From a virus, in the IMG/VR virus record IMGVR_UViG_3300032516_000087, positions 1-35,722 of that record: 35,722 bases of DNA; one strand, given 5' to 3'. Positions 1 through 35,480 of this stretch are shown one piece after another. Made by a program: the position numbers and the translations under genes. Every line of letters begins with the position of its first letter. Position 1 is the stretch's first letter. The notes beneath the pieces were generated by a model. That model did no database searches. It saw nothing but the letters and a program-made list of their open reading frames with translations, and was not told the DNA's origin.

Positions 1-3000
1 CGGGTCGTCCGAAGTCATTGCCGCCGCCGTCGCATAGTCCGACTCGGGCGACAAATCCTCGATCGTGCGCAGGTTCGGATCCCCGCTCATGGCCTGGTCG
101 ATGAATCGCTGTTTGGCGGCGACCATCTGCCACATGGTTTGATCGTAGGAGCCTTTGGTCGAATAGGCGTGTAGGTACACGACCGGGTTCTGGTTGCCGG
201 TGCGCACGATGCGCCCCTCGCGTTGCTCCAGGTCGGCCGGATACCACGGCACATCCATGTGGTGCTCCGCGAACAGCCGGTTCTGCGCGTTGGTGCCCAC
301 TCCCATGCTGATCGTGGTGCCGACCAGCACCTTGATCTTGCCATCGTTGACGGCGGTGAATAGCGCCTGCTTTTTCAGGCCCGTCTTGTGATCGGCCATG
401 AACGCGATTTCGCTCGGCTTGATGCCGCCCTGGATCAGTCGTTTGGTGAACCACGCGCGCCCGTCGAAACCGTGCTTGACAGTGACCCCTTCGCCGAAGC
501 CAAGATCAGCGAACACCATCTGCGTGCCACCTTTCAGCGGCGACAGAGCTTTGCGGTCGCGGGTCTGGTACTCGATGTTGGCCGATTTATGGTAGTCCGC
601 GATCACGCCGTCAGCGAGCACGTTGAGCTTGGATTGCGGATCGTTCGGCGCGCTCGGTTCCATGTAGCGCACGTCCATGGCCGCCAGGCGCCCGTCGCCG
701 ATGATGGCAATCACCGGGTCGGGATTGTGCGGTTGGGCGAAGGAGCGCCGGAATGCCTTGCTCGCATCCACCCGCGCCTTGAGCACTGGCTTGTACTCGT
801 TGTAGCTGTTGGTTTCCGCAATGTGAATGGCGCGCGCGCCGTTGAACACCTTGGGCCGCCGGTCACCGAGCTTCTTGGCCAGGTCGTCGGACGTCAAGAC
901 GTCAGCGAAGGAGCGGAACATTTGCGTCATTTCCGGCACGTTGACGAACGACGTAAAGCGCGTCACGTTCTCGTAGTCGCCGCTGACCGTGGGCTCGACC
1001 TCGGTTTGCTCGCGCCCAAACATGGTGGCCCAATCATCGAACCTGGACAGGCCCTTTTCATGCAACAGTTGCGGGGCCATGTACCGCTTGACCGTGTAGA
1101 GCTCGGCGATGGTGTTGGTAACCGGCGTCCCCGAGGCCATCACCAGCGAGCGGCCCGGATTGCGCTCGTCGAGCCAGCGGGTTTTCATCCACAGATCGAA
1201 GGCGCGATCCGAGCCGTTCGGGTCCAGCCCCTTAACCTTGCGCTGGGTGGCAAATTCCAGCTTGCGGTACAGGTGCGCTTCGTCGACGTAGAGCATATCC
1301 ACGCCAAGATCGGAGAACATGGCCCCCTGATCCTTGCCCACCGAACTCGCCGCCGCCGTCAGGCGTTGTTTCAGCCTTTCGATCGTCGCCTGGATCTGCT
1401 TGACGGTCGGATCTTGAGAATAGGCCATCGCCGGCTTGCCGGTGCTCGTAACCCTGCCGGTAGGCTGCGCTTCGGTGCCGCCGGCTTCCGCCAGCGCAGC
1501 GCGAAACTCGTCCAGCTGTTGTTCGATCAGCTTTACCTTGAAGGCCGGATCCAGGTCGAGCAGCTTGAAGGAGGAATGCGTCATCACTACGCCGTCCAGG
1601 TCGGACAGCGCGACGCGGCCAACCCATTCCCTGCGCTTGGACGTGTGGAAACCGTTTTCGTCGGCGAGCATCAGCCGCGCCGTGGGGTACAGATCAAGCC
1701 ACTCCTGCGCGATCTGTTGCAGCATGTGACGCGGCACGATGAACATGGGTTTGCGAAGCAGCCCCAGGCGCTTTTGCTCCATCGCCGAGGCCACCATTTC
1801 AATGGTCTTGCCCGCCCCGACCGCATGCGCCAGGTAGGTGTTGCCGTCCTGGATGATCCGCCAGATCGCGCGCTTGACGTGATCGAAGATGGCGCCGCCG
1901 CCATACTTGAGCGCGGTTCCCGGCAGGGTCAAATGGCGGCCGTCGAACTGGCGCGCGACGGTGGTGTTGAAATTCTCGTTGTAGTGTTCGACCAGCGTGG
2001 CCCGGCGCTTGTCGTCACTCCAGAGCCAGGTCTTGAAATCGTGGCGCATCGCATCCAACGCCGCGTTGGCGGTGGCCGTGAGCTCGGGATTGAGCACGTG
2101 ACGAACCGGCTGGCCCCGTTCCCTGATTGTGTCCATGACGAGCAGCGGGGCCTTATTCAAGGCGTGCTCGAGCACCAGGCTCGCCGGCACCGTGGCCACC
2201 GTGGCGTACTTGCTGTTGTGGTCCTCCGTCCAGGCGTTGCCCTTGTCCACGGTCCAGATGCCACCGGCTTTGTTGTAAGTGGACGTGACCCCTGGCACGC
2301 CGGCCTCACTGGCCATGAACTCCTGGTAATGCTCGGACGGGATCCAGGACATGCCAAGCTCGGCGTCAATCTGATCGAAGGTCAGATTGCTCGGAAGCAC
2401 GGTACGCAACACGGCCACGTTCTTTTCAAACCGGCGATCGACCGCCGCCGCCGCTTCGGCTTCGGACAGCTTCTTGCGCACGTTGCCCGACAGGTATTGA
2501 TCGGCAACCTGGTAGGTGCCGGCCGGCGTTTTCCACACCGCATCGCCCAGGGCGTCGACGGTCTGCGCTTCGGTCAATCCCATCTTGGCTGCGATCGCTG
2601 GCATATCGACGCGCCCGGTTTCGTTGAGCACGTGGAGCATGGCATCCTGCGGGGTGCGGATTTCCGGCACCTTCGGCGCCATCAGCACGCGTTCATGCAA
2701 GATCGGCGCGTCGGTGATCTGATCGGTTTCCTCGTTCAATCGCTCGAGCGCGCGCACGAAAACGAACTCGGGGTCGGTCTGGAACTTGGGAAGATGCTTC
2801 CAGCGCCGGTATTTGCGCTCGACCTCACGATCCTCGCCGGTGATCGGATCTTCCTCGATTACGGTGCGGGTGTAGGGCGTGTTCGCCATGAGGCGCCCGT
2901 TTTTGGCCACGAACCGCTTGTACTCGGCGAGCATCGCCTTGCGCGACTTCTCCCAATCGCCGTCGTTCAACTGATCCAGGTGCGCTTGCTTCACCGCATC

Positions 3001-6000
3001 GCGCAACGGGACGTAATCCTTGATGACCTGATCCTGCACTTCGGCCCGCTGGCCGATGCCGGCATGGGTGAGCATCAGCACGCCGGCCTTGCTCAAGTAG
3101 AAGGCGCCTTCCTTCTTATTCGCCGGGTCCAGGTCGCGGACCAGGGTTTGCATGTTGCCGGCCGCGCTACCGGCCTGCGCCGCAAACACGTTTTCGGGCA
3201 GCGTGGCCACGGCCGCCGCGAAGTGATCGGCGATGTTGCCCTCGCGCGGGAGCACCGTGTATTCCAGCGCCTTGCGCATGGACCCTTGCAGCGAGTGGGA
3301 GCCGAGCACCATTTCGGGATGGGCGACGAAATACTCGTTGACGATCGCCGGGCCTTCCGTGGTCTGCACTTCGCGCAACTCGGCCCACGGCTGCGCCTGC
3401 GCGAACTCGGTGCCGGCCACCTTTTTGCGCAAAAACAAGACGTCGGTTACCACTTCGGTCCCGGCATTCTTTTTGAACGCCGTTTGCGGCAGGCGCACCG
3501 CGCCGATCAGGTCCGCGCGCTCGGCCAGGTATTGCCGCGCCGCAGCGTTGCCCTTGTCCATGGTGCCGTGCGACGTCACCGCGATCATCAGGCCGCCCGG
3601 CTTGATGCGATCCATGGTTTTGGCGAAGAAGTAATCGTGCAGCAGGAAGCCGTTGCGCTTGTACTCGGGATCCGCGATCACGCGCCAGTTGGCGAACGGC
3701 CAATTGCCGATCGCCACATCGTAGAAGTCGTGCGGCAGCTTGGAATCGAAGTAGCTTTCAACCCGGATCCGCTCGTCGGGCATCAGCTGTTTCAACATGG
3801 CCCCGGCGATCGGGTCGAGCTCGATTCCGGTGTACGCGCTGTTGACGGCGATGCCGGCTGGCATGAGGCCGGGGAATACCCCGATGCCGGCGCCAGGCTC
3901 GAGCACGGTGCCGCCGTGGAAGCCGAGCCGTTGTGCGCCGGCCCACATCGAGCGCACCACATCCTTGCTCGTCCAGTGCGCGAACTGTGTCGAGGCCGCC
4001 GCCTCCTTCCATTCCTCGGGCGTGAGCAACGCCTTCACTTCATCGTAGAGCTTGCCCCACGACGTATCGAACACCTTGAGGGTTTCGCTTTCGCTGTGCG
4101 TCGGCGAGCGCCAGCGTTTGTTTTTCTCAATCGTGGCGCGCAGCTTGTCGGCCGCCTGCATCTTGGTGCCGAAGATGCCATTGGCGAGCTCGGACGCTCC
4201 CCATCCGGTGTACTGCCCGAGGATTGCTTGCTCGTCAGGCGTGGCCTGGCGGCCGGCCGTGGCGAGCTCCTTGACCAGCTTTACCGCGGCGACGTTCTGC
4301 CGGGCTTTGGTGAGCCAGCCGCCCTCATAGGATAGGTCGGTAGGCCGGGAGAAGTAGTAGTTTCGTCCTGACTTGGTAGGGATTTCAGGGCCCGAAACTG
4401 GAGCATTTCCGAGAACACCAATTCCTGCGCCTGGTTCTGCTGTTGGGTGAACATCGCCAGGCGTTGCAGGTGCGGCAGGTTGTTCGCCTTCGCGTGGTCC
4501 TGCATCGACAGGTCCGTTACCTGTTGCGCCATTTCCTCCGCGTACTGGACCACCCACGGCGCCAGTTGGCCCGACTTCTCCATTTCCCGGTACAGCTGCG
4601 GGTTCTGATCCCGCAATGCCAGTCGGACCATTTCCCGGTAGTTGCTCATCGCTTACTCCGGTTTGAACGGCGGGGGGTTGACCAGGGGAAGTTTCGGGTG
4701 GCCGTACTTCGGTATCCCCAGGTTCTCCAATTCCTCGTCCCGCTTGATACGTTCGGACACCGCTTTCGCTGATGCTAGGCCCTCGGGGCTCGCCGAAAAT
4801 TCCTTGCTGCCGATCTTGTCGATGACCCTCCGAGATTCCTCCGAGGACATCGTAAAGGGTTTTAGTGCCATCGTTGAACTCCTTTGCGTTTGCCGTAGTG
4901 ACCTGGATATTCTCACCGTCCCTACGCCACCAATTATACGCCTGCTTGTCGGTGACGTCTATGCCATCGGGTGTAACAGCGTTGCGAGCGACAAGGAACG
5001 GATCCGCGCCATTACCGTCCCACAGTGAGAGCTCGTCGGCGATGCCGGCGTAGCGCTGGAAATCGGCGGCCAGCGCCTTGTGCGCCAGGAGCACTTCTCC
5101 CCACGGCACCCAGCGATTGTTTTCGAGCGCGCGATTGTAAGCACGGATCACCGCGGTTTGCGGATCGGTGGCCACGCCATGGACCCGGATTTCGTAGCCA
5201 GCATCGCGCCAGGCTTGCAGCACGCCCAGGCCCTTTCCGACGTTGGCCATCGTGGCATCAAACACCACATCGAGGCCCTTGCCGCGCGCCGTTTCCACGA
5301 TGAGTTTCGCCAGCGCCGACGATTCTTCATGCAAGCGGGAACCGCCACGGCCATCCTTCGCCGCCGCAAACAGATCCCACTCGGGCGCCTGCATCTTGAT
5401 GTTGTCGGCATCCACGAACACGACGTTGTGCCGTTTCACCGGCAGAACGCCGTGCTCTTGCAGCTTGCCCATGACGTAGCCCTTGCCCGAGCCGCCGCCG
5501 CCGGCCATCACCCACAAGATCGGCTTGCGCCCAGGTGGGGTGACCTGGCCGAGAACGTGGTCGAGCACACTCTGGCGCCAGGCGCCGCGTTCGGCAGCGA
5601 GCGACTCGGGATAGGCTGTGTCGAACAACGCCGCGTGCGGCGCATGCGCCGGGAACGTATCGCGCATCAGCGGATCGTCCGCGGCCAGCGTGCGCGGAGT
5701 TTTCGGCAGCTGCCAGGTCAACGGGTACTCTTTGCCGTTCACTACGATGTTGCCGGCGTGCGCGAGCTCGATGCGCTTCGGCGCTGGCTTGATGCCGGCC
5801 GGCTTGAGCACCTTGTCGCGGTAGTAGGCTTCGACCGCAGGAACCAGTACACCAGCCGGCGCCGGCCGGCCTTGCAGCATTTCCCTGCGCGCGACGCTCG
5901 AACTCTTGGCCGCCATTTGCTCGTCGCTGCGCGCCATGGCCAAGTAGTAATACCCGTCGTGGCTGGTGTCCACGTCGCCCATGTAGATCGACGGGAAGCC

Positions 6001-9000
6001 GGGCGGGTGGCCTACGGCCTGGTCCTCGCCGGTGATGTTGACGATGGTGGCGCCCGGATAGTGCGCGGCGCCCCAATCGGCCAGCTGCGTGCGCTTGAGC
6101 TTGCCTACCCAATTGTCAGCTTCGGTGCCTGGCCCCGCGGCAACCTCGATCCCCGCATGCCCGGCGACGGCCAGGTTGAGCATGGCCGCGCGGTGCGCCA
6201 GCGACACCGAAGGCTCGCCCTTGGCTTGGGTTTTCGCATCGGCAAGCTTCTGTCCCACCGGCGCCATCACCACGGCCTGGACCGTGTAGCCCTGCGCCTC
6301 GGCGTACTGTTTGGCCTCTTCGGCGGCCTGGACGTGCCCGGTTTGAACCGGGTTATAAGTGCCGCCGAACATCAGCACCAGCGGCTTGCCCTTCGGCGGC
6401 ATGCCGCTGGCGGGGCGCTCGTACTTGGCGCCGCCAGGGGGTGATTGCCCGCGCTGCACCGTAGCCGGCTTGGCGGCCACGGCCTCGACTGGCGCGGGCG
6501 CCGCGGGCACCCCAGGCGAGCGCGTGCCGGCGGGGAACATCGTGGCCTGGGTGGCGAACAGATCGGTCTGATCGACCTTGACCGCCGGGCCGGTGGCGGG
6601 CGCCGGCTTCGCCGCGGCCTTGGCCGCCTGTTCCTTCGCCGCCGCCGCCGCGCGAATCTCGGCCGGGGTGTGGGATTTGAGCCCGAAAACTGCCGGCGCG
6701 GCCGGCGCCGCAGGCGCGGGTTTCGCGGGCGGCGCCGGTTCCTCGCCGAACATCCCGCCGGTGGCTTGTTCTGTCGCGCGCGCCACGCGCGCGGCCAGCG
6801 GCAGATCGGTTACTTCCTGAACGGGTCTTTCAGGGGTGGCTCGTTGACCGGCAGCGCGTTCGCCTTCTCGTGGCCCGCCGCCATTATCTGGCGCAGCTTG
6901 GCCTCGACCCGAAAGTTTCTGCGCACGCGTGGCCGGCGCGGCGGTTGCGGTTGCCTGTTCAAGAATTTGCTCCTTTGACCTGGGCGCTACCGCGAACATG
7001 CTGGCGCGGTTGCTCAATTCTACCTCGGCCGCTTCGGCGATCGCCTGCAATCGGGCGGCCATGCGCTTGGGCGACCGGACGTTTTCCACGAACAGCCGCG
7101 TGAACGCGGTCTGCATCGGGTCGGCCCCGAGCAAGTCTGCTTGGCGCAGCACTTCGGAAGGCTTCATCCCGCGGGCCTTGGCGTCGACCAGGGCCCAGGC
7201 GCCGTGCACCAGCGGCGTGCGCAGATCCAGGTCGCCCATGGCCGGCAGGCGGGCCCAGGCCGGCGCCGCTTCGCGCATCGCGCGCAGCACGTTGCCGATT
7301 TCCGGGTCCGCGGTTTCCACGGCCAGCGACACGATTTCGGGCGAGCGGTAGGCCCGCGCGACCAGGGCATCCTCGACGCGCGTACGCAACTGCTTGGTGT
7401 ACGACCCATCGGCCGCGATCAGGTCGGCGCGCTCGTTGGCCGGGACCGACTCCAGGAAGGAGCGGATCAGAGCGTCGTTGTCGGCGTGCAGCACGTCGCC
7501 CTCAGTGCGCGAGAGCTTCGATACATCCAGGAGCCGGCCGTCGTTCATCGCCCGCTCGGCGCTCGAGGTTCCCAACGCGTGCGACGCGTTCGACAGCCGG
7601 CCCAGGTCTTTGTTGGCGTTGATCTTGTCGTCGTACACCCGGACCAGCAGCGGCGCCTTCATGGCGGCGATCACCGCGGGATCTAGTTCGAGGCCCGGCG
7701 CCGCGGCGACCAGCTGCGCCCGGTAGTTGTTGGCCGTGCCGCGCTTGTACCCTTCGGTGATCCCGATGGTGCGCGCGTTGTTCAAAGCCACGATCGAGCC
7801 GGCCGGCGGGTTGCCGTACTCCAGGACCGAGCTCCCGTCGACCCGGTTGGACGCCAGCACCGAATCGGCCTCGACCACGGCATACCTGGCCGGCACCTTC
7901 GAACCGTCCGGGAAGATCACCGTTTCCGCGCGCCCGGTCTGCGCGGGCGGGATCGCTTGGTCGGCCGAGCCCTTCACCGACGCCATCGGCGCGCCGAGCT
8001 CGCTGCTGTTCGAAATCCCGGCGCGCTCGAAATCGGGGTTGCCGGCGATTGCCGCGATCTGCGTGCGCGAGGCCGCGCGCTCGCGGTCCCGGTTCTGCTT
8101 GGACAGATCCGGCATGTCCTCCGCGTACACGGTAGGCTGCGGCGCGGGGGCAGGTGCAGGGGAAGGCGCGGGCGCGGCGCCCGCGGGCGGGGCCGCAGGG
8201 GCAGCTGGCGGGGCCGGCGGCGGGACTTTCCGCCCGGTCGACAGCCCTTCGTCGCGCCATTTTGTGATCGCGTCGTTGCGCGCCACGCGCGCCGCTGCGG
8301 TCGCCGCTTCGGTTTCGGCCGCCGTTTTGGCGTCAGCGGCATCCTGGATGTTCTGGCCGGTGGCGCGGCGCCTGATCTGATGCCCGGCGCCGAGCACCCC
8401 GGCGGTCAGCACGGTTTGCGCCGTGGTGACGCCCGCGACCTCGCGCGCCGATTGCCACCAATCTTCCGGCGACGTGAACGAGCGCCGCTCCCCGCCCATG
8501 CCGGCCTGCGCTTCGACGTCGGACTGGCCCAGCTGGGTGCCCGCTTCGGACAGGTTCTCGAGGCCCAGGCCCAATGCCGTCTTGGACAGGAATCGGGTGG
8601 TGGTGGCCTTGCCGAACAGCCGGCCCAGGCGCGAGCGGACCGCGGCGCGAAAGATTGCGAGCTCGGCGGTGTTGCCGACCGCTTCGCCGGCCCCCTCGTA
8701 GTGGCCGTAGGCCGTCGCCAGGTCGCCCCACCAGGCGCGCGCGTTGTTCCATTCCTCATCAGTGATCGGCCCGACCTTGTTGCTCTTGCGGATCTGATCC
8801 AGGTGCTCGCGCCAATCGGTCTGGAACTGGTTGGCTGCCATCCGAAACCCGGACCAGTAGGACGCCCCAGCGGTCGATGCAAAACTCGCGGCCTTCGCTC
8901 CCGCGGCGCCACCAGCGGCGCCCATGACTCTGCCGATCGCGCCCGCGATCGCGGACGAACCCAGGCTGACCACGGAAAACGCCACCGATGGGCCGAGACT

Positions 9001-9762
9001 CGCAATCTCCCCCAGGCTCAAGCCGGGGATCGTCGTCGCGTAATCGCCTTTGCCGGCGGGTGCCCCCGCCAAAGTGAGCGCCTTCGATGCTGCTCGCGCT
9101 GTTTTCACCCACTCGGGCGCGGACGCATCCATGCCCTGATAGAACCCGCCGCCCGCCGCTTGCAGGTGCGTAGGCTGATCGTGGATCTGCTTGCCGATGG
9201 CGCCCGCGGTTTGGATCGCCGACAGCTTGAACGGGTCGCCGGTGGCGCCGGGCGCCGGGCCAGCAACCACGCCGCCCGGTTGCGCCAGGCGCGCGGTGTC
9301 GGCCGCCGCCGCATCGTCGGCCACGCGCTGCGCCGCCGAATCGGCCTTGAAACTGCCGCTGCGCGCCACCGGATCGGCGACGATCTTGCGCGGCACGTCC
9401 GGGAACCCGGACATCACCGAGCCGGGAATCGGCACCGTGGCCGGTTCCACGACCCCGCTTGGGATCAGTCCGCTGTCCGCGGCGGCGGTCGACATCGGCG
9501 CGCCGGTGGTGTCCTGGCCGGAAACCCCGAGCTTCCCGATCACCCCGAGCGCCGCCGATTTGGTGCGCTCGAGCACGCTCGGCCGGGTCTTGGCATCGAA
9601 CGCCTCACGGAATTTGCCGACCGTGGCATCGTCGGCGCCTTCGGTGAACAGCGTTTTTGCTACGTTGTCGGCGAACCAGTTGACGCGCTTGGCCTCACGC
9701 GTGGCACTGTCGGCCTCCCCGGCGAACTCGGGCGAAGCAGCGTATTCCGACCAGCCGGCCAT
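1..9762 (-). CDS. Giant polyvalent virion protein (ParB-like, nucleotidyltransferase, zeta-type kinase, N6-methyltransferase, SNF2-like helicase), 3' end outside window
   Basis: One minus-strand frame is open from the ATG at 9762 to the window edge, giving 3,254 visible residues. Domains in order: Ala/Gly-rich hydrophobic stretch (about 245-300); Ala/Pro linker (about 570-595); ddrB/ParB-like domain (about 620-790) with a helical extension to about 920; second Ala/Pro linker; nucleotidyltransferase (about 1125-1330) with GGTYNPVQTGH at 1133-1143 and SSSVARR from 1287; zeta-toxin-type kinase (about 1410-1570) with Walker A GGGGSGKG at 1421-1428; Gly/Pro linker (about 1650-1797); N6-adenine methyltransferase with EPGAGIG at 1955 and IGNWPF around 2020; SNF2-like helicase with GAGKT at 2649, DEAH at 2827 and QREGR at 3180. 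Families of this build (DarB, Bcep22-type giant proteins, 'polyvalent proteins') are packaged and injected to shield phage DNA from host defenses. That role is inferred here. The start lies 3 bases after the upstream stop. Two small genes overlap the Gly/Pro linker in another frame. Confidence 0.9.
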   Translation of the reverse strand, partial: MAGWSEYAASPEFAGEADSATREAKRVNWFADNVAKTLFTEGADDATVGKFREAFDAKTRPSVLERTKSAALGVIGKLGVSGQDTTGAPMSTAAADSGLIPSGVVEPATVPIPGSVMSGFPDVPRKIVADPVARSGSFKADSAAQRVADDAAAADTARLAQPGGVVAGPAPGATGDPFKLSAIQTAGAIGKQIHDQPTHLQAAGGGFYQGMDASAPEWVKTARAASKALTLAGAPAGKGDYATTIPGLSLGEIASLGPSVAFSVVSLGSSAIAGAIGRVMGAAGGAAGAKAASFASTAGASYWSGFRMAANQFQTDWREHLDQIRKSNKVGPITDEEWNNARAWWGDLATAYGHYEGAGEAVGNTAELAIFRAAVRSRLGRLFGKATTTRFLSKTALGLGLENLSEAGTQLGQSDVEAQAGMGGERRSFTSPEDWWQSAREVAGVTTAQTVLTAGVLGAGHQIRRRATGQNIQDAADAKTAAETEAATAAARVARNDAITKWRDEGLSTGRKVPPPAPPAAPAAPPAGAAPAPSPAPAPAPQPTVYAEDMPDLSKQNRDRERAASRTQIAAIAGNPDFERAGISNSSELGAPMASVKGSADQAIPPAQTGRAETVIFPDGSKVPARYAVVEADSVLASNRVDGSSVLEYGNPPAGSIVALNNARTIGITEGYKRGTANNYRAQLVAAAPGLELDPAVIAAMKAPLLVRVYDDKINANKDLGRLSNASHALGTSSAERAMNDGRLLDVSKLSRTEGDVLHADNDALIRSFLESVPANERADLIAADGSYTKQLRTRVEDALVARAYRSPEIVSLAVETADPEIGNVLRAMREAAPAWARLPAMGDLDLRTPLVHGAWALVDAKARGMKPSEVLRQADLLGADPMQTAFTRLFVENVRSPKRMAARLQAIAEAAEVELSNRASMFAVAPRSKEQILEQATATAAPATRAQKLSGRGQAAPDNGGGPREGERAAGQRATPERPVQEVTDLPLAARVARATEQATGGMFGEEPAPPAKPAPAAPAAPAVFGLKSHTPAEIRAAAAAKEQAAKAAAKPAPATGPAVKVDQTDLFATQATMFPAGTRSPGVPAAPAPVEAVAAKPATVQRGQSPPGGAKYERPASGMPPKGKPLVLMFGGTYNPVQTGHVQAAEEAKQYAEAQGYTVQAVVMAPVGQKLADAKTQAKGEPSVSLAHRAAMLNLAVAGHAGIEVAAGPGTEADNWVGKLKRTQLADWGAAHYPGATIVNITGEDQAVGHPPGFPSIYMGDVDTSHDGYYYLAMARSDEQMAAKSSSVARREMLQGRPAPAGVLVPAVEAYYRDKVLKPAGIKPAPKRIELAHAGNIVVNGKEYPLTWQLPKTPRTLAADDPLMRDTFPAHAPHAALFDTAYPESLAAERGAWRQSVLDHVLGQVTPPGRKPILWVMAGGGGSGKGYVMGKLQEHGVLPVKRHNVVFVDADNIKMQAPEWDLFAAAKDGRGGSRLHEESSALAKLIVETARGKGLDVVFDATMANVGKGLGVLQAWRDAGYEIRVHGVATDPQTAVIRAYNRALENNRWVPWGEVLLAHKALAADFQRYAGIADELSLWDGNGADPFLVARNAVTPDGIDVTDKQAYNWWRRDGENIQVTTANAKEFNDGTKTLYDVLGGISEGHRQDRQQGIFGEPRGPSISESGVRTYQAGRGIGEPGDTEVRPPETSPGQPPAVQTGVSDEQLPGNGPTGIAGSEPAAVPGNGEVGPTGAVGGPVRGGNGATGNGPVDAGPREGEQPAAPATPGDVHPTAEPGAGIGVLGNAPVSGPEIPTKSGRNYYFSRPTDLSYEGGWLTKARQNVAAVKLVKELATAGRQATPDEQAILGQYTGWGASELANGIFGTKMQAADKLRATIEKNKRWRSPTHSESETLKVFDTSWGKLYDEVKALLTPEEWKEAAASTQFAHWTSKDVVRSMWAGAQRLGFHGGTVLEPGAGIGVFPGLMPAGIAVNSAYTGIELDPIAGAMLKQLMPDERIRVESYFDSKLPHDFYDVAIGNWPFANWRVIADPEYKRNGFLLHDYFFAKTMDRIKPGGLMIAVTSHGTMDKGNAAARQYLAERADLIGAVRLPQTAFKKNAGTEVVTDVLFLRKKVAGTEFAQAQPWAELREVQTTEGPAIVNEYFVAHPEMVLGSHSLQGSMRKALEYTVLPREGNIADHFAAAVATLPENVFAAQAGSAAGNMQTLVRDLDPANKKEGAFYLSKAGVLMLTHAGIGQRAEVQDQVIKDYVPLRDAVKQAHLDQLNDGDWEKSRKAMLAEYKRFVAKNGRLMANTPYTRTVIEEDPITGEDREVERKYRRWKHLPKFQTDPEFVFVRALERLNEETDQITDAPILHERVLMAPKVPEIRTPQDAMLHVLNETGRVDMPAIAAKMGLTEAQTVDALGDAVWKTPAGTYQVADQYLSGNVRKKLSEAEAAAAVDRRFEKNVAVLRTVLPSNLTFDQIDAELGMSWIPSEHYQEFMASEAGVPGVTSTYNKAGGIWTVDKGNAWTEDHNSKYATVATVPASLVLEHALNKAPLLVMDTIRERGQPVRHVLNPELTATANAALDAMRHDFKTWLWSDDKRRATLVEHYNENFNTTVARQFDGRHLTLPGTALKYGGGAIFDHVKRAIWRIIQDGNTYLAHAVGAGKTIEMVASAMEQKRLGLLRKPMFIVPRHMLQQIAQEWLDLYPTARLMLADENGFHTSKRREWVGRVALSDLDGVVMTHSSFKLLDLDPAFKVKLIEQQLDEFRAALAEAGGTEAQPTGRVTSTGKPAMAYSQDPTVKQIQATIERLKQRLTAAASSVGKDQGAMFSDLGVDMLYVDEAHLYRKLEFATQRKVKGLDPNGSDRAFDLWMKTRWLDERNPGRSLVMASGTPVTNTIAELYTVKRYMAPQLLHEKGLSRFDDWATMFGREQTEVEPTVSGDYENVTRFTSFVNVPEMTQMFRSFADVLTSDDLAKKLGDRRPKVFNGARAIHIAETNSYNEYKPVLKARVDASKAFRRSFAQPHNPDPVIAIIGDGRLAAMDVRYMEPSAPNDPQSKLNVLADGVIADYHKSANIEYQTRDRKALSPLKGGTQMVFADLGFGEGVTVKHGFDGRAWFTKRLIQGGIKPSEIAFMADHKTGLKKQALFTAVNDGKIKVLVGTTISMGVGTNAQNRLFAEHHMDVPWYPADLEQREGRIVRTGNQNPVVYLHAYSTKGSYDQTMWQMVAAKQRFIDQAMSGDPNLRTIEDLSPESDYATAAAMTSDDP
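4281..4649 (-). CDS. Nested small protein of unknown function, overlapping the polyvalent gene in another frame
   Basis: A 122-residue protein is read in a different frame from the polyvalent gene that covers the same DNA. GGAG at 4656-4659 sits 6 bases before the ATG, inside the last codons of the preceding small gene. Residues 1 to about 88 look like an ordinary folded, mostly helical protein rich in Gln, Met, Leu and Glu, starting MSNYREMVRLALR. By hand count about 51 of the first 61 codons after the start end in G or C, against about 19 of 61 for the polyvalent frame over the same bases. After about residue 88 the sequence becomes Ser/Thr/Pro-rich and runs over the methyltransferase N-terminus to a TAA at 4281, so the tail may be incidental. 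I do not recognise a family. Its position beside a zeta-type kinase domain makes an antitoxin-like role conceivable, but nothing in the sequence shows it. Confidence 0.7.
   Translation of the reverse strand: MSNYREMVRLALRDQNPQLYREMEKSGQLAPWVVQYAEEMAQQVTDLSMQDHAKANNLPHLQRLAMFTQQQNQAQELVFSEMLQFRALKSLPSQDETTTSPGLPTYPMRAAGSPKPGRTSPR
4653..4871 (-). CDS. Nested 72-residue protein of unknown function, overlapping the polyvalent gene
   Basis: The protein begins MALKPFTMSSEESRRVIDK and is charged, with no membrane segment and a Pro-rich C-terminus. AAAGGAG at 4879-4885 lies 7 bases before the ATG, one of the best ribosome-binding sites in the window. The gene is in the same frame as the next nested gene, whose ATG follows its TAA by 3 bases, so the two look like a small operon. 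It starts where the zeta-type kinase domain of the overlapping polyvalent protein ends. By hand count roughly 73% of its codons end in G or C, against roughly 43% in the polyvalent frame. No family recognised. The alternative is a fortuitous ORF, but start-site quality and codon bias argue against that. Confidence 0.65.
   Translation of the reverse strand: MALKPFTMSSEESRRVIDKIGSKEFSASPEGLASAKAVSERIKRDEELENLGIPKYGHPKLPLVNPPPFKPE
4879..4885 (-). promoter_or_regulatory. Strong ribosome-binding site of the first nested gene
   Basis: AAAGGAG is spaced 7 bases from the ATG at 4871. It lies inside the coding sequence of the polyvalent protein, at the end of the kinase domain, and marks a translation start internal to that gene. 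Confidence 0.65.
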
Positions 9763-29606: not shown

Positions 29607-32267
29607 TTACTTCTTCGGCTTCGGCGGTGCGGCGCTGCTTCCACCGGAGTCCGAAACCTTCGCCCCGATGATGTTGCCATTGTTGTCGAACTGGAATTGC
29701 ACGTTGCGATCCGGCCGGCTGTTGTCGACCTGAACCACGATCGGGGCCGGCGCGGGCGTGGGCGCCGCTGCGGCCGGGGCCGGCGCCGCCTTCGCCGCCT
29801 CCTGTCCTGACCGCGCGACCTCTTTTACCGCTGCCGAGTGCTCCTTGCCCTGGGCGGTCATATCGGCTTTGAGGGTCTTTACCTGGAGTGCCAGCGAGTC
29901 GATCACCTTGCCGAGCCGCGTTTCGACGTCGGCGGAATCCTTGGCGATGCTGGCCGCCTTGACCGTCGCATCGGCGCGCAACCGTTCGGCCTCGACCACG
30001 GCATCAGCCGCAGCCTTCGCCGCGTCGCGCGAGGCCGTGGCGGTGGCGTCGACCTTGTAGCGTTCGGCCGCGGCCCGCTCGCGCGCCTCGTCGGCCTTGA
30101 CCGCTGTTTGGTCGGCCTTGTCCTTCAAGGAAACCTGCATCTGTGCCAACTGTTGTTTCGAATCCTCCAGCTGGGTTTGCAACTGTTGAATCTCACCGTA
30201 GAGCGGGTGCTGGGTCGCATCCTGGCCATCGGCGCCGATCTTGGCCAGCGCCGCTTTCGTTTCTGCCTGGAGCTTCTCGACCATCGCCTGTTTCGTCGCC
30301 AGGTCGAGCTCGACCGCCCGCTGTTGGATCGCCGCGGCCTGTTGCTCGGCCTGCGCCTTGGCCTGCGCTTCGGCCTGCGCTTCCGGCGTGTCGGGCGCAT
30401 TGGGATCGGCGTGCCCGGTGATTTTGCGCAACCGCTGTACGAACTCGTCTTTGTTGGGGATGTCGGAGAACTCGATCGCCAGGTCCAGCAGTTGCACCGA
30501 AAGCTCGGGCGGCAGCTGGGTTAGCAATTGCATCAGCGTGTCGAACATCGCCTGGCGCACGCCGGCCCGGAAGTCCTGTTCGGACACCACGAAATCGCTT
30601 TGCGTGGCGGTGATGTCGTTGACCTTGCCGGTGTCAGGATCCTGTTGGTTCAGGTACAACCATTCGGCATTGCCGCGCGCATCGGTGAGGCGCATCACCC
30701 TGGCTTCGGTCATAAACTGGCGCACCAGGGACAGCTTCTTTTCCCCGCTGGCCTGCACCGCCATGCGCAGGTTGTCGAAAATGCGCTCGGTGATGATCGA
30801 GCCCTGGGTCTGCCGCGCCAGCACCGCGCGCCCGCTGACGGCGTTGGTTTCGCGGCCCATGTTCTCGTTGGTGAGGCCGCCCGACTCCTGGAACAGCGCA
30901 AGCTCTTGCGCCATCAGCTTCAGGTCGCCCTCGGCCATGTTGAAGTCGGTACGGTATTCCAACTTGGCGCCGCGCTTCACCCGCACGATGCCGTTGGGAT
31001 CGCGCACCTGTTCGATCAATTCGGTCCAGTCGTCGGTGGCGTCATCGTCGACTACCACCTGTTGCGAGGAAACTCGGTACAGCGAGCGGGCGAAACGCTT
31101 GTTGACGTCCTCCTGGATCCCACGCAGGTTGCGGGTGGCCCCGTAGGGTTGGTTGTCGCGCGCGCGGCGGTAGCACCAGATCGGCGTCAGGCTGAAACCG
31201 TCGTGCTTGTACGGGGAGCGCCCATGCCCAAGCATGCCGCGCTCGGTCATCATGGCGTAGTGCATGCGCAGCTTCGAGGTTTTCCACAGCCGCGTGTTGC
31301 CGATCGCCGCGGCCGACGTGTGGGCCGTGTTCGTGTCGTCGAACTCCTGGCCGTTGTGCTCGCCCACGCACAGGGTCACGCTGCACGGCGCCCGGTACTG
31401 AAACTCGATGAGGCGCACCCGCTGACGGTTGCCGTAGCGCAGCATGGTGCCGCTGGTCTGGTAGACAAACCCGTTCCAGGTGCGCCCGGTGTAGGGCTCC
31501 CAATCGCCCAGCTTTTGGCCCAGGTAGAACTGCTCGTCCCTCTCCTTTTCCGGGTCGTAGCCTTCGGCCACCAGTTTCAAGTGCGCGGCCTTGTCCGGGT
31601 ACATCGAAATGGACACGTCCAGGTCCACCCACCGCTCGCGGAAAATGTACCTGGCGTCGGCCATGTCGAGCTCGTTGCTGGCCGAGTCGTGCCAAACATT
31701 GCGCCACGATTCATAGCGGCAAGTGAGCGGTTCGGCCGTGGGGTCCGGGTTGATCGAGTCCTCGATCCAGCCCACTCCGACCGTGACCGCATCATCGAAC
31801 GCCCGCGACCGATGGAACCGGGATTTGTTCACATCGTCCACGTACTTCAAGACATCCGACTGTGCTTGCGCCCCGTCGACGTCGTCCTTCGTCCGCGGCA
31901 GGATCTTGTAATCGGTGCGGGTGCGCCGTTCGGTCCCGAGCAACCATTCGATGTGCGGCAGGATCCGGTTGAAGGAAACGGGCTCCTGGCCGCGATCGCG
32001 CAACACCTTGGCATCAGCCGCCGACCATTGCAGCCCGTCGCGGAAATCCGCATCCGTCGACATTTCATCGCGCCCGGCCTGGCTGCGCTCTTTCTCGGTG
32101 GTACGCCAGTCGAGCAGCTTGTTGAACAGGTCGCGCTCGGCCTCGCTCGGGTCAATCTCGACGGTGGTATCCGCGCCGGCCTTGCGCGCGCTGGCTTCCG
32201 CGGCGGCCACGAACGGATCGTGCGCGCCCTCAGTAGCCCAATTCTCGACGCCGTTGATGATGTTCAT
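29607..32267 (-). CDS. Portal protein, P22 type with long C-terminal coiled coil, 886 residues
   Basis: The N-terminal 'W...D...F..GLQW...D' block (residues 60-85), then EWLLGTERRTRTDYKILPR (107-125) and the VTVGVGWIED and TRNLRGIQEDVNKRFARSL blocks, are the signature of P22-like portals. Residues 450-510 match the crown/wing region (QESGGLTNENMGRETNAVSGRA). From about residue 628 to 835 the protein is an Ala/Gln/Glu/Lys-rich coiled coil, then a Pro/Ala linker and a short disordered end. P22 has a long helical barrel here; a coiled coil of about 200 residues is compatible with that. The portal forms the dodecameric gate for DNA and docks the terminase. Its ATG overlaps the upstream stop as ATGA. 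Confidence 0.9.
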   Translation of the reverse strand: MNIINGVENWATEGAHDPFVAAAEASARKAGADTTVEIDPSEAERDLFNKLLDWRTTEKERSQAGRDEMSTDADFRDGLQWSAADAKVLRDRGQEPVSFNRILPHIEWLLGTERRTRTDYKILPRTKDDVDGAQAQSDVLKYVDDVNKSRFHRSRAFDDAVTVGVGWIEDSINPDPTAEPLTCRYESWRNVWHDSASNELDMADARYIFRERWVDLDVSISMYPDKAAHLKLVAEGYDPEKERDEQFYLGQKLGDWEPYTGRTWNGFVYQTSGTMLRYGNRQRVRLIEFQYRAPCSVTLCVGEHNGQEFDDTNTAHTSAAAIGNTRLWKTSKLRMHYAMMTERGMLGHGRSPYKHDGFSLTPIWCYRRARDNQPYGATRNLRGIQEDVNKRFARSLYRVSSQQVVVDDDATDDWTELIEQVRDPNGIVRVKRGAKLEYRTDFNMAEGDLKLMAQELALFQESGGLTNENMGRETNAVSGRAVLARQTQGSIITERIFDNLRMAVQASGEKKLSLVRQFMTEARVMRLTDARGNAEWLYLNQQDPDTGKVNDITATQSDFVVSEQDFRAGVRQAMFDTLMQLLTQLPPELSVQLLDLAIEFSDIPNKDEFVQRLRKITGHADPNAPDTPEAQAEAQAKAQAEQQAAAIQQRAVELDLATKQAMVEKLQAETKAALAKIGADGQDATQHPLYGEIQQLQTQLEDSKQQLAQMQVSLKDKADQTAVKADEARERAAAERYKVDATATASRDAAKAAADAVVEAERLRADATVKAASIAKDSADVETRLGKVIDSLALQVKTLKADMTAQGKEHSAAVKEVARSGQEAAKAAPAPAAAAPTPAPAPIVVQVDNSRPDRNVQFQFDNNGNIIGAKVSDSGGSSAAPPKPKK

Positions 32268-32659
32268 TCGAACCTCTGCGCCAGATTTTCGCGGCCGTTG
32301 ACGCTGATTATGGCCTCATCGACCACCCGCTTGAGTTCGTTCGGTTTGGGCGGCATGGCGATAAGTAACGGTATCCATTCAAGAATTGCATCCCGGATGC
32401 GCCACGTGGTGTGCTTGGTCAGGTCCATCCCGAGGGTGTCGGCGATCGCCAAGGTTTTGAGGATCCACTGTGGTTCGGTCAGGTTCAGATACCACGGGAT
32501 CGCCGATTCGCAGATCACGTGGACGCCGCCGCTCGGTTTGGGGCGAACCGGGCAAAGGATCAGCGCAGGCTCGCTACCCACGTACTGGAAGGTTCCAAGG
32601 ATGTCCCCCTTGACCCGCTGCTCGGTGCAATTCAAACCGACGACGATGCTCTCAGGCAT
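32264..32659 (-). CDS. Small protein of unknown function, 131 residues
   Basis: A mixed alpha/beta protein: residues 1-60 are beta (MPESIVVGLNCTEQRVKGD, GTFQYVGSEPALILC), then a helical 'TLAIADTLGMDLTKHTTWRI' and a charged C-terminus. GGGGAG is 8 bases before the ATG. It overlaps the portal start by 4 bases, so it is translationally coupled to the portal. No enzyme or membrane motif. Function unknown; conserved placement next to the portal would suggest a head-assembly role. Confidence 0.68.
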   Translation of the reverse strand: MPESIVVGLNCTEQRVKGDILGTFQYVGSEPALILCPVRPKPSGGVHVICESAIPWYLNLTEPQWILKTLAIADTLGMDLTKHTTWRIRDAILEWIPLLIAMPPKPNELKRVVDEAIISVNGRENLAQRFE

Positions 32660-32885: not shown

Positions 32886-33353
32886 TCACGCGAGCGACCC
32901 ACCAGCGTCCGAATAGGCGTCGAGCGCGTACTGAAGCGATCGCTTCGGCTGGGGGTAGTGGCTCGCCGGCAAGGATGCCCATATGCTAGAGCACTTGTCC
33001 AAAGCTTCCTGCACCCGGCCGGCTTTCACATCGGCCATCGCATGGGCGTCGGCGATCAATTCCATTGCGGCTTTGTCCTGCGACTCGGGGGAAAAGTCGG
33101 GCAGCTTGAGCCTGGACTGGAGCCGATCCCAGGTCCAACGGATGAACTGGTACGCTCCTGCCGCGGTGGTGTAATTGACCACGCCATCGGTTTGGGTGAA
33201 GGGGAATTTCCGCCTGGGATGATCGGCAAAGCTGGTGAAGGTGCGCCCCGGCGCCGGGTAGCCGAAAAGTGCCCGATACCCATCCGGCCCGGCCGTACCT
33301 TCGCATTTTCGGATCAGCATAAGGAAGGCGGCGACGTTTTGATCCTGGGCCAT
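32886..33353 (-). CDS. Endolysin, lambda R-like lysozyme/transglycosylase, 155 residues
   Basis: The layout is that of lambda R: MLIRKCEGTAG with catalytic Glu at residue 18, then FTSFADHPRRKFPF, then the YTTAAGAYQFIRWTWDR block and FSPESQDKAAM, then a C-terminal CSSIWASLPASHYPQ. The spacing of Glu18, the 'D-H-P-R' segment and the 'A-G-x-Y-Q-F' segment agrees with the family. Length is right. These enzymes cleave the glycan strand of peptidoglycan to release progeny. No signal peptide is visible, so a holin-type partner is required. Translation appears coupled to a tiny ORF that ends 4 bases upstream, since no good ribosome-binding site precedes the ATG. Confidence 0.88.
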   Translation of the reverse strand: MAQDQNVAAFLMLIRKCEGTAGPDGYRALFGYPAPGRTFTSFADHPRRKFPFTQTDGVVNYTTAAGAYQFIRWTWDRLQSRLKLPDFSPESQDKAAMELIADAHAMADVKAGRVQEALDKCSSIWASLPASHYPQPKRSLQYALDAYSDAGGSLA

Positions 33354-33357
33354 GGTT

Positions 33358-33432
33358 TCACGTGGAGCAAGGCGCCCCGAGGCCGAGTTGGAGCGCGATC
33401 GCCGCCGCGAGCACGCCGAGCAAGTGCATCAT
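33358..33432 (-). CDS. Tiny hydrophobic peptide, candidate lysis-related, 24 residues
   Basis: ATG-ATG at 33432/33429 overlaps the stop of the DUF2829 gene (ATGA), and TGA at 33358-33360 lies 4 bases before the endolysin ATG. The product (MMHLLGVLAAAIALQLGLG, ending APCST) is one hydrophobic stretch of about 18 residues with no charge except His3. It fills the gap exactly and would supply coupled translation into the endolysin gene, which otherwise lacks a ribosome-binding site. It could be a minimal pinholin-like or leader peptide. It is too short for usual holin families, so I call it a candidate only. Confidence 0.45.
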   Translation of the reverse strand: MMHLLGVLAAAIALQLGLGAPCST

Positions 33433-33662
33433 GGCGCCAGCAAGATGGTCACGGCCCAATCGTCGGCCAGGGCATCAGTCTGCGTGCACAACCAGGGCAC
33501 CATGTCGCCGGTGACGGTGCGCATGTAGATGTACGGCAGGGTCATTTTGCTGTTGGCGTCGGGCCGCTGAATGGCGATCCACATGCCTTTGCCGTCCCAC
33601 CCGGAGCGCGAAACCCTGGCCCCGGCCTGCATCGCCTCCAAGGCTTGCGAATAATTCATCAT
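33429..33662 (-). CDS. DUF2829 protein, Tad2-like anti-Thoeris candidate, 77 residues
   Basis: The sequence (MMNYSQALEAMQAGARVSRSG, W22, MWIAI, then the C-terminal 'W-L-C-T-Q-T-D-A-L-A-D-D-W-A-V' at 57-71) matches the DUF2829 pattern 'AL..L..G..V.R.GW...MW...........L..T..D..A.DW'. DUF2829 is the family of Thoeris anti-defense 2 (Tad2), which binds and sequesters the NAD-derived gcADPR signal of Thoeris. Some members also bind CBASS cyclic nucleotides. Older annotation names the family a type I TA toxin. Length is close to known Tad2 proteins. AAGGA about 6 bases before the first of two adjacent ATG codons. It follows a second DUF2829 gene and precedes the lysis genes. Activity is inferred from family. 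Confidence 0.75.
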   Translation of the reverse strand: MMNYSQALEAMQAGARVSRSGWDGKGMWIAIQRPDANSKMTLPYIYMRTVTGDMVPWLCTQTDALADDWAVTILLAP

Positions 33663-33672
33663 CGTTTTTCCT

Positions 33673-33954
33673 TCACGGTTGGACGGCCTGCCAGTCCGTC
33701 GCCAACAGGTCGGTTTGACCAATCAGCCACGGTGACAGGGTGTTGTTCGGCTGGCGTTGCATGATCGGGTTGGCGTAAACCCGACCGTCATTGCCGGGGA
33801 GCGCCACTTGCAACCACATCGACAGGTCTTGTGCTGGGACCGCTGGATTCGGAGGGTTGGCCGGGACGGCGGGGATTTTCTTGACCCAGCCGACCCGCTG
33901 GACGAACGCGGCGCCGGTGCGCAGCTGGGTGAGCGCCCAGGAGAAATCTGCCAT
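33673..33954 (-). CDS. Second DUF2829/Tad2-like protein, 93 residues
   Basis: The same family layout as the next gene: MADFSWALTQLRTGAAFVQR, GW at 22-23, a Pro/Ala-rich insertion (29-41), DLSMWLQVALPG at 43-54 and the C-terminal WLIGQTDLLATDWQAV (76-91). It differs from its neighbour mainly by the Pro/Asn-rich insertion between the Trp and the MWL strand. The ATG at 33954 overlaps the TerL stop as TAATG. A longer frame upstream would run antisense-like through terL and is not supported. Two adjacent, clearly diverged copies suggest specialisation, for example for different signal molecules, which is inference. Confidence 0.75.
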   Translation of the reverse strand: MADFSWALTQLRTGAAFVQRVGWVKKIPAVPANPPNPAVPAQDLSMWLQVALPGNDGRVYANPIMQRQPNNTLSPWLIGQTDLLATDWQAVQP

Positions 33955-35480
33955 TACACCCGTCCCGTCGAGGGTAGCCGGTTGCGCCCGCGGCCACCGA
34001 GTTTCCAGCCCATTGCGAACTGCTGGAAGGCGTCGGCCAGGTGGGAAAACTCGTCGTGTTTTGGTTCCTCGCGCCAAATGCCCTGCTTGTCGTCCCAAAC
34101 CTTGGTGTACGTGTCCAGGGCGACGAGGCCCTCGGCGCAGCCTTCCGGGTCGAACCAGCATTGCGGCAGGATGTTGCGCGCGGCTTCGATGCTGTTCTGC
34201 TTGAGCGGGGTCCGGGGCACCACGATCACATCCGAGCTCGGGACGTTCATTTCCCGGAAGTAGTCGACCGCGGCTTTGCCGCCGGCCGCGGTCAGGTGTT
34301 GGTGTTCGGCATCGTGCGGCAGGTAGAATTTGCCGCGCAGCCAGCCCGTAGCGTTGATGATGTTCAGGAAGTGGGCGAAGCCCTCGCCGGATTGCTGGTA
34401 GGTTTTGAGGAAACGCGGTTGCCCGGCAACCTCCTGCATGAACCAGAGCGCCATGCGATCGCGGTGCCCCAAGTCCCAAAACGTGTGCACCGGCACCGAG
34501 AGGGCAACCGGGATGCGGCGGATCTGGCCGGCGTGGCGTATTTGCGCCATCTGGTTGCGGAAGTAGGCCCCTTCGATTGATTGCTCAAACGCCTCGTCGA
34601 TCGTGCTCGGGTATTCCTGCTTCATATCCTGCTTCAATTCGCGTTCCTTGAGCACGTACCAGGCGCGTTGACCTGGGCTCAGGGTGGTGCGGGTGCTCGC
34701 TTCGACGCGATCGAAATAGGCGGTTTTTTCGGACGGGATCACTACCCCTTCGGGGTCCGCGGTGTAGTCAAGGTCATCGAACCAGGCGAAGAAGTGCAGC
34801 TTCCACTCCATTTCACGCAGCGGCGCCGGGTCGTCAGCGCGCTCGCGCGCCGTCTTAACCATTTCGAAAAACTCCCCGGAGCGGCCCTCGGCCGTGCTTT
34901 CGACAAAGCCGAATTGGCCGGCGGCCAGCGTTTGCAGGGTGCCGGTTTTGACCTCCTTGGCCCGGTCGGGGTTTTTCTTGCAGATCTTCCCGTACTCGGA
35001 AACGTGCAGCACTTGGGTTGTGCCTGAGCGCAACGACGTGGCCACGCGAGTCCTCGAGCCGTTGGAGAAGGCTAACTCCCCCGCTCGATCGTTGATCGCT
35101 GGGCGCTGCTCCTTCAACCAGTCGGGCAGAGAATCATAGGCGAATTTGATCTTGAGCTCGAAAATCGCCTGCGCCGATTCAAGGTCATGGGCGACCACGC
35201 CAGCCTGCACATTGGCGGTGAACAGGCAGGTATCGAGGATCAAAAGCTGGATGAGGGTCGAGAATCCCAATTGCCGAGCCTTGACGATGATGTTCAGAAA
35301 ATGCAGGTTGGCCAGTAGGCGCTGTTGTGCGAGGTTTGGCACAAAGCGAACTTTGTGGCCCTGCTTATCTAGGATCCAGTAAAGGTTACAGAGTCGCCAC
35401 TCCCGGTCACCGTAGAGGGTTACCAACTCCTGGGCTTCGGGCGAGAATGGCCGATCGGCGTCAGGCGGCATTGCGCGCAT
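33954..35480 (-). CDS. terL: Terminase large subunit, 508 residues
   Basis: This is the packaging motor and nuclease. ATPase motifs: Walker A variant ARQLGFST (68-75), the aspartate/glutamate motif HVSEYGK (159-165) and the coupling motif VESTAEG (193-199). Nuclease motifs: Asp336 in FWDLGHRD, Asp390 in YLPHDAE and Asp476 in KHDEFSHLADAF, the usual acidic triad of the RNase H-like domain. Length is normal. The large-subunit variant with Gly-Phe-Ser-Thr in place of Gly-Lys-Thr/Ser is common in this group of phages. An in-frame TGA lies 12 codons upstream of the ATG at 35480, so the gene starts here or at Met4. No strong ribosome-binding site is visible. No small subunit was recognised in the window. 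Confidence 0.93.
   Translation of the reverse strand: MRAMPPDADRPFSPEAQELVTLYGDREWRLCNLYWILDKQGHKVRFVPNLAQQRLLANLHFLNIIVKARQLGFSTLIQLLILDTCLFTANVQAGVVAHDLESAQAIFELKIKFAYDSLPDWLKEQRPAINDRAGELAFSNGSRTRVATSLRSGTTQVLHVSEYGKICKKNPDRAKEVKTGTLQTLAAGQFGFVESTAEGRSGEFFEMVKTARERADDPAPLREMEWKLHFFAWFDDLDYTADPEGVVIPSEKTAYFDRVEASTRTTLSPGQRAWYVLKERELKQDMKQEYPSTIDEAFEQSIEGAYFRNQMAQIRHAGQIRRIPVALSVPVHTFWDLGHRDRMALWFMQEVAGQPRFLKTYQQSGEGFAHFLNIINATGWLRGKFYLPHDAEHQHLTAAGGKAAVDYFREMNVPSSDVIVVPRTPLKQNSIEAARNILPQCWFDPEGCAEGLVALDTYTKVWDDKQGIWREEPKHDEFSHLADAFQQFAMGWKLGGRGRNRLPSTGRV

Follow-up and report, generated by a model that had tools for sequence, protein, structure and literature searches.

Adjacent near-canonical and loop-variant Tad2-family genes beside terL in an uncultured podovirus-like phage

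Tad2 proteins, sponges that take up signal molecules of bacterial immunity, exemplify the means by which phages counter nucleotide-signalling defences, and how far a single sponge can reach is a question of current interest. Tad2 is a tetramer with pockets that span protomers of two dimers. Two protomers contribute their strand 1-strand 2 loops to the gcADPR pocket, which is completed by the strand 3-strand 4 loop and by strand 4 and helix 3 with the loop that joins them; cyclic dinucleotides are bound through a separate long insertion after strand 2 (reviewed in PMC12043709). Ligands differ within the family, since SPO1 Tad2 binds gcADPR and Myroides Tad2 binds His-ADPR (PMC13299392). Solved members include SPO1 Tad2 (gp34.65; PDB 8sme, 8smf, 8smg), Myroides odoratus ModTad2 (PDB 8v3e, and 9eib with His-ADPR), and HgmTad2/AcrIIA7 and SptTad2 (PDB 8kbi-8kbk, 8wjd). 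Two phages are also informative with respect to gene arrangement. Staphylococcus phage SpaA1 carries an adjacent and overlapping DUF2829 pair, genes 60 and 61 (L251:3762-4267), in which gene 60 has a variant WGGYWF loop and gene 61 the canonical WNGKNMF, and a third copy, gene 7, lies among its head genes. That pair was already published in 2012, without function (PMC3398947), and a Tad2 pair is an uncommon arrangement. In Klebsiella phage vB_KpnM_IME346 (Jedunavirus), the DUF2829 gene gp52 directly follows terL and precedes the next head gene with overlapping ends, its start overlapping the terL stop.

The locus described here shares features with each of these systems and differs from all of them. 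Unlike the SPO1 Tad2 case, two copies, here called gene A and gene B, stand beside terL. The IME346 gene is a single copy with a canonical loop, unlike the pair. The SpaA1 pair is located at the other genome end and not by terL, and its variant loop is of a different kind from that of A. The window, that is the whole stretch of DNA that was analysed, comprises 35,722 bases and is a single linear IMG/VR virus record, whose source is an uncultured podovirus-like phage. On the minus strand, the gene order was observed to be terL, gene A, gene B, a mini-ORF, the endolysin gene, a small ORF, a phrog_10057 gene and the portal gene, with the following features:

33954..35480, minus strand, terL (terminase large subunit), immediately upstream of gene A; phrog_2, E 5.7e-27
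33673..33954, minus strand, gene A, encoding a loop-variant Tad2-like protein of 93 aa (PF11195)
33429..33662, minus strand, gene B, encoding a minimal, near-canonical Tad2-like protein of 77 aa (PF11195)
33357..33432, minus strand, hydrophobic mini-ORF of 24 codons (MMHLLGVLAAAIALQLGLGAPCST), from translation
32886..33353, minus strand, endolysin gene, downstream of the Tad2-like pair; phrog_90, E 2.4e-39
32264..32659, minus strand, phrog_10057 ('DNA methyltransferase') gene, 131 aa, just before the portal gene; E 8.7e-6
29607..32267, minus strand, portal protein gene, 42% identity to the portal of Serratia phage Parlo

The terL product shows 47% identity to the terminase of Sphingopyxis phage VSN-002. 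The ATG of gene A and the terL stop codon have one base in common (TAATG), and gene B starts 10 bases past the stop of gene A, with an AGGA ribosome-binding sequence just upstream; from this spacing, we infer that A and B are co-transcribed. Coding-like codon usage was observed in the annotated frame only (+0.249 per codon for A and +0.268 for B, against negative values in every other frame), and the GC3 values of 0.80 for A and 0.86 for B match those of the structural genes. The initial annotation had proposed two neighbouring, diverged DUF2829/Tad2-like genes at 33429-33954, and the open reading frames do lie there on the minus strand. Both products pass the PF11195 cut-off, confirming that A and B are two real Tad2-family genes and not chance. 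Their position between terL and the lysis genes stands in so far as terL is upstream and the endolysin gene downstream, and is better described as a packaging-lysis-portal block than as a lysis cassette alone.

Three further observations concern the surroundings of the pair. The start of the 24-codon mini-ORF (33357-33432) overlaps the stop of gene B and its end lies just before the endolysin gene, so that it fills the gap; it could encode a tiny membrane peptide tied to lysis. Genes of the same name and similar size as the phrog_10057 gene are found between terL and portal in related podoviruses, in PEp14 and DC1 just before the portal gene, and the name 'DNA methyltransferase' looks doubtful since the protein is so small. 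A frame that stays open for at least 3254 aa (positions 1-9762, minus strand) continues beyond the end of the record, and may be compared with the giant virion proteins of some podoviruses.

Membership of both proteins in the Tad2/DUF2829 family was supported by profile searches and by fold matches to solved Tad2 structures. Against the PF11195 profile (Tad2-like, formerly DUF2829), for which the curated Pfam cut-off is 25 bits, A scored 38.6 bits (E 1.6e-9) and B scored 86.9 bits (E 1.4e-24). A direct BLASTP comparison of the two gave 30% identity (E 2e-9), and PADLOC and NCBIfam searches returned no match. By sequence, the best solved relatives of B were SptTad2, HgmTad2, ModTad2 and SPO1 Tad2, with phmmer E-values of 1.5e-14 for SptTad2, 3e-11 for ModTad2 and 8e-10 for SPO1 Tad2, to which B is ~31% identical; the match of A to solved Tad2 proteins was weak (E 0.02). 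The AlphaFold2 model of B (mean pLDDT 94.2) shows, by DSSP, a helix at 4-12, strands at 17-19, 28-32, 44-48 and 54-56, a helix at 61-65 and a strand at 69-71. Its best 24 Foldseek matches were all Tad2/AcrIIA7 chains (SPO1 Tad2, E 7e-8), and its query-normalised TM scores to Tad2 chains were 0.78-0.86. The model of A (pLDDT 84.8, with lower values across the insert) repeats this succession of elements, and matched SPO1 Tad2 in Foldseek with an E-value of 1.1e-4. In VIA-align, Tad2 chains were retrieved by A with Z scores of 10.3-11.3, the top one being ModTad2 (Z 11.3 over 71 residues) and the first unrelated chain scoring 3.6; since the models were guided by family alignments, these fold matches are not independent of the homology or the profile match. 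Family and fold are thus common to A, B, SPO1 Tad2, HgmTad2/AcrIIA7 and SptTad2. On its sequence, B is a minimal, near-canonical Tad2, and its closest relative among the contigs searched is found in contig L008 (67% identity). No close homologue of A, and no relative carrying the same insert, was detected when viral contigs, genome contigs and phage records were searched at the sensitivity applied; near same-virus records may have been left out of this search.

An insertion in one of the two copies had been noticed earlier, and we could locate it in A, between the invariant W23 and M46, where 22 residues, mostly Pro and Ala, take the place of the W-NGKG-M loop. The corresponding segments are:

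33820..33885, minus strand, gene A insert, residues 24-45 (VKKIPAVPANPPNPAVPAQDLS), which in the alignments replaces the four-residue NGKG loop between strand 1 and strand 2
33585..33596, minus strand, gene B DGKG loop, residues 23-26, placed by alignment and DSSP between the strands at 17-19 and 28-32

The distance from the invariant W after strand 1 to the strand-2 aromatic is exactly five residues in 225 of the 229 family domains surveyed. In A it is 23 residues, including PAVPANPPNPAVPA, and a comparable insert was seen in no other of the 229 domains, the nearest being that of L139 with seven residues. The pocket loop W-[ND]-G-K-G-M is present at standard length in B (WDGKGM) and absent from A; SPO1 Tad2 has NGKG where A has its 22-residue segment, and the loop of ModTad2 is likewise standard (GWNGKGM), unlike that of A. 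The second position of this loop is N in 219 of the 229 domains and D in B (N to D at 23). A second rare change in the pocket segments of B, S to T at 60, lies before QTD, and both changes are rare but conservative.

The C-terminal pocket segment PW-x-x-x-Q-T-D-x-L-A-x-D-W (strand 4, loop and helix 3), of which SPO1 Tad2 carries the W-x-x-x-Q-T-D-x-L-A-x-D-W motif, was found in both proteins, as PWLCTQTDALADDW in B and PWLIGQTDLLATDW in A, with T or G at the usual serine. In A it reads WLxxQTDLLATDW, and the residues R20, G22, W23, P75, W76, Q80, D82, L84, A85, D87 and W88 are kept. On alignment, the pocket segments of Tad2 are recognisable in the loop of B and in the C-terminal segment of both proteins, and not in the strand 1-strand 2 loop of A. 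On the models, the insert of A maps to the strand 1-strand 2 loop and the helix 3 side is kept, the strand numbering of the review having been matched to the models by element order and its pocket description being at the level of segments, not of single ligand-contact residues. With the insert in a pocket loop and the helix 3 side retained, the modelled pocket of A should differ strongly from that of B. Since this loop contributes to the gcADPR pocket, A probably has another ligand, serves as a subunit of a mixed oligomer, or is decaying.

The gap between strand 2 and strand 3 is 11 residues in the model of B and 13 in that of A, and the loop of ModTad2 at this place is longer than that of B. 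HgmTad2 and SptTad2 carry here the long post-strand-2 insertion reported to hold cyclic dinucleotides, which is absent from both A and B. With their short strand 2-strand 3 loops, both proteins lack the feature that is associated with CBASS nucleotides, and the suggestion in the initial annotation that such nucleotides might be bound is weakened. A reading of A's insertion as the cyclic-dinucleotide insertion was also considered, and was rejected because it occupies another loop, one lining the gcADPR pocket.

Our tentative reading, which as a whole statement we hold at somewhat less than even confidence, is that these are tandem Tad2-family nucleotide-sponge genes, B being a usual ADP-ribose-type Thoeris sponge and A a fold-preserved second sponge with altered specificity. 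Judging from its sequence, B would most likely form the usual Tad2 oligomer and sequester an ADP-ribose-type Thoeris signal. A would retain the fold of Tad2 and the pocket's C-terminal half, with a flexible Pro/Ala-rich loop between strand 1 and strand 2, and on its model it would most likely act as a second sponge, the altered pocket holding a different or bulkier nucleotide signal. Together, A and B would protect against more than one signalling defence while the structural proteins are made. Such coverage of two signals by the pair is plausible, and we infer for it co-expression, the oligomeric state, ligand binding, a difference in specificity and anti-Thoeris activity. Its kept residues and coding-like codon usage indicate that A is not an obvious wreck, and adjacent canonical-plus-variant copies recur in unrelated loci, which favours a second sponge. 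Against it, A forms a long branch, as would be expected of a relaxing copy, and B itself carries the two rare pocket-segment substitutions.

This recurrence was assessed among 329 loci (partly redundant), 11 distinct ones of which have at least two Tad2-like domains. In eight of the 11, namely this phage, SpaA1, L038, L111, L139, L183, L260 and L319, a canonical copy is accompanied by a loop-variant copy; the copies in L111 are ~0.8 kb apart, and L183 has a marginal Pfam score. All copies are canonical or nearly so in L077 and L315, and both are variant in L234. Single-copy loci comprised 249 canonical versus 9 variant ones, a contrast that is inflated because most searches were anchored on a canonical sequence and a variant is more easily noticed beside a canonical copy. 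Standalone variants were found in a profile-based genome survey, and a scan with the SpaA1 variant identified copies with 93-94% identity in contigs L255 and L258, with no canonical neighbour within the stretch searched. Since a loop variant can stand by itself, it does not require a canonical partner, and an exclusive occurrence of loop-variant copies beside canonical ones is ruled out. Other arrangements were also seen: in the single protein encoded at L319:3697-4206, an N-terminal PF11195 stretch with a WAGYW loop is followed by a second, canonical stretch at the C-terminal side, and a further canonical copy lies 1.3 kb upstream; L315:2407-3190 holds three consecutive Tad2-like genes whose frames touch or overlap. 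A canonical-plus-variant Tad2 module is a suggestion, not a result. It appears quite unlikely that a recurrent two-gene module of canonical and loop-variant copies exists in unrelated phages, in which the variant would supply a hybrid or second pocket and widen the sponge to a signal beyond that of Tad2 alone, the proline-rich loop here being unique among the members surveyed.

Alternatively, A might assemble with B into a mixed tetramer; since Tad2 pockets are built from two protomers, this would create a hybrid pocket whose specificity or stability would be new. The published tetramer architecture (PMC12043709), the adjoining of the two genes on one strand, the recurrence of canonical-plus-variant tandems and the order of variant then canonical stretch within the single L319 protein are all consistent with this arrangement, but the close homologues of the SpaA1 variant in L255 and L258 stand without a neighbouring canonical copy, and we consider it unlikely. 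It is also unlikely that A is a decaying or neutral duplicate without ligand binding, with B alone at work. Loss of a highly conserved loop, a low-complexity insert and the long branch would suit decay, but the open frame, with its coding-like codon usage and GC3, and the preserved fold-defining and C-terminal motif residues in a model that is confident outside the loop argue against it. In the tree test, a single clade of A and B, and hence their single origin by duplication, was not rejected (p-AU 0.49); both duplication in place and separate acquisition are thus compatible with the tree.

The reading as two sponges also has to accommodate the position of the pair, which the initial annotation regarded as odd among late genes. 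This is not so, given the precedents and the existence of capsid-triggered Thoeris. In addition to IME346, contig L008 shows the order terL, Tad2-like gene, portal; in phiAH14a, a Tad2-like gene is flanked by head morphogenesis and capsid genes; and one Tad2-like gene of SpaA1 lies between the minor head protein and the scaffold (PMC3398947), with a head-cluster setting in L255 and L258 that looks similar. Thoeris cyclases of staphylococci and streptococci sense the major capsid protein (PMC12578639), so that for at least some systems late expression would be sensible, as a sponge made with the structural proteins would arrive with the signal. Neighbours across ~65 distinct loci are otherwise mixed, and include ribonucleotide reductase, HNH endonucleases, helicase and portal. 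Viral contigs yielded no relative in a terL scan. In related podoviruses whose terL-portal block is similar, namely Parlo, PEp14, Atu_ph08, DC1 and POI1126, the interval from terL to the portal gene carries no annotated Tad2, and the pair therefore gives the impression of accessory genes added to a variable slot. It is very unlikely that A and B are not defence sponges here and have a virion or host-metabolic role, such as binding of an NAD-derived metabolite. Their placement by terL, lysis and portal genes and the frequent occurrence of family genes among head genes would fit such a role, but the diffuse neighbours suit a mobile accessory gene better than a structural component, and solved family members are described as Tad2 or AcrIIA7, in part with nucleotide ligands.

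If A binds nothing, the locus would hold an ordinary duplicate beside an ordinary Tad2. If loop variants hold other signals or build mixed pockets, counter-defence would be widened by duplicating and re-cutting one small fold, and if A binds another signal, its ligand could point to a signal so far unrecognised.
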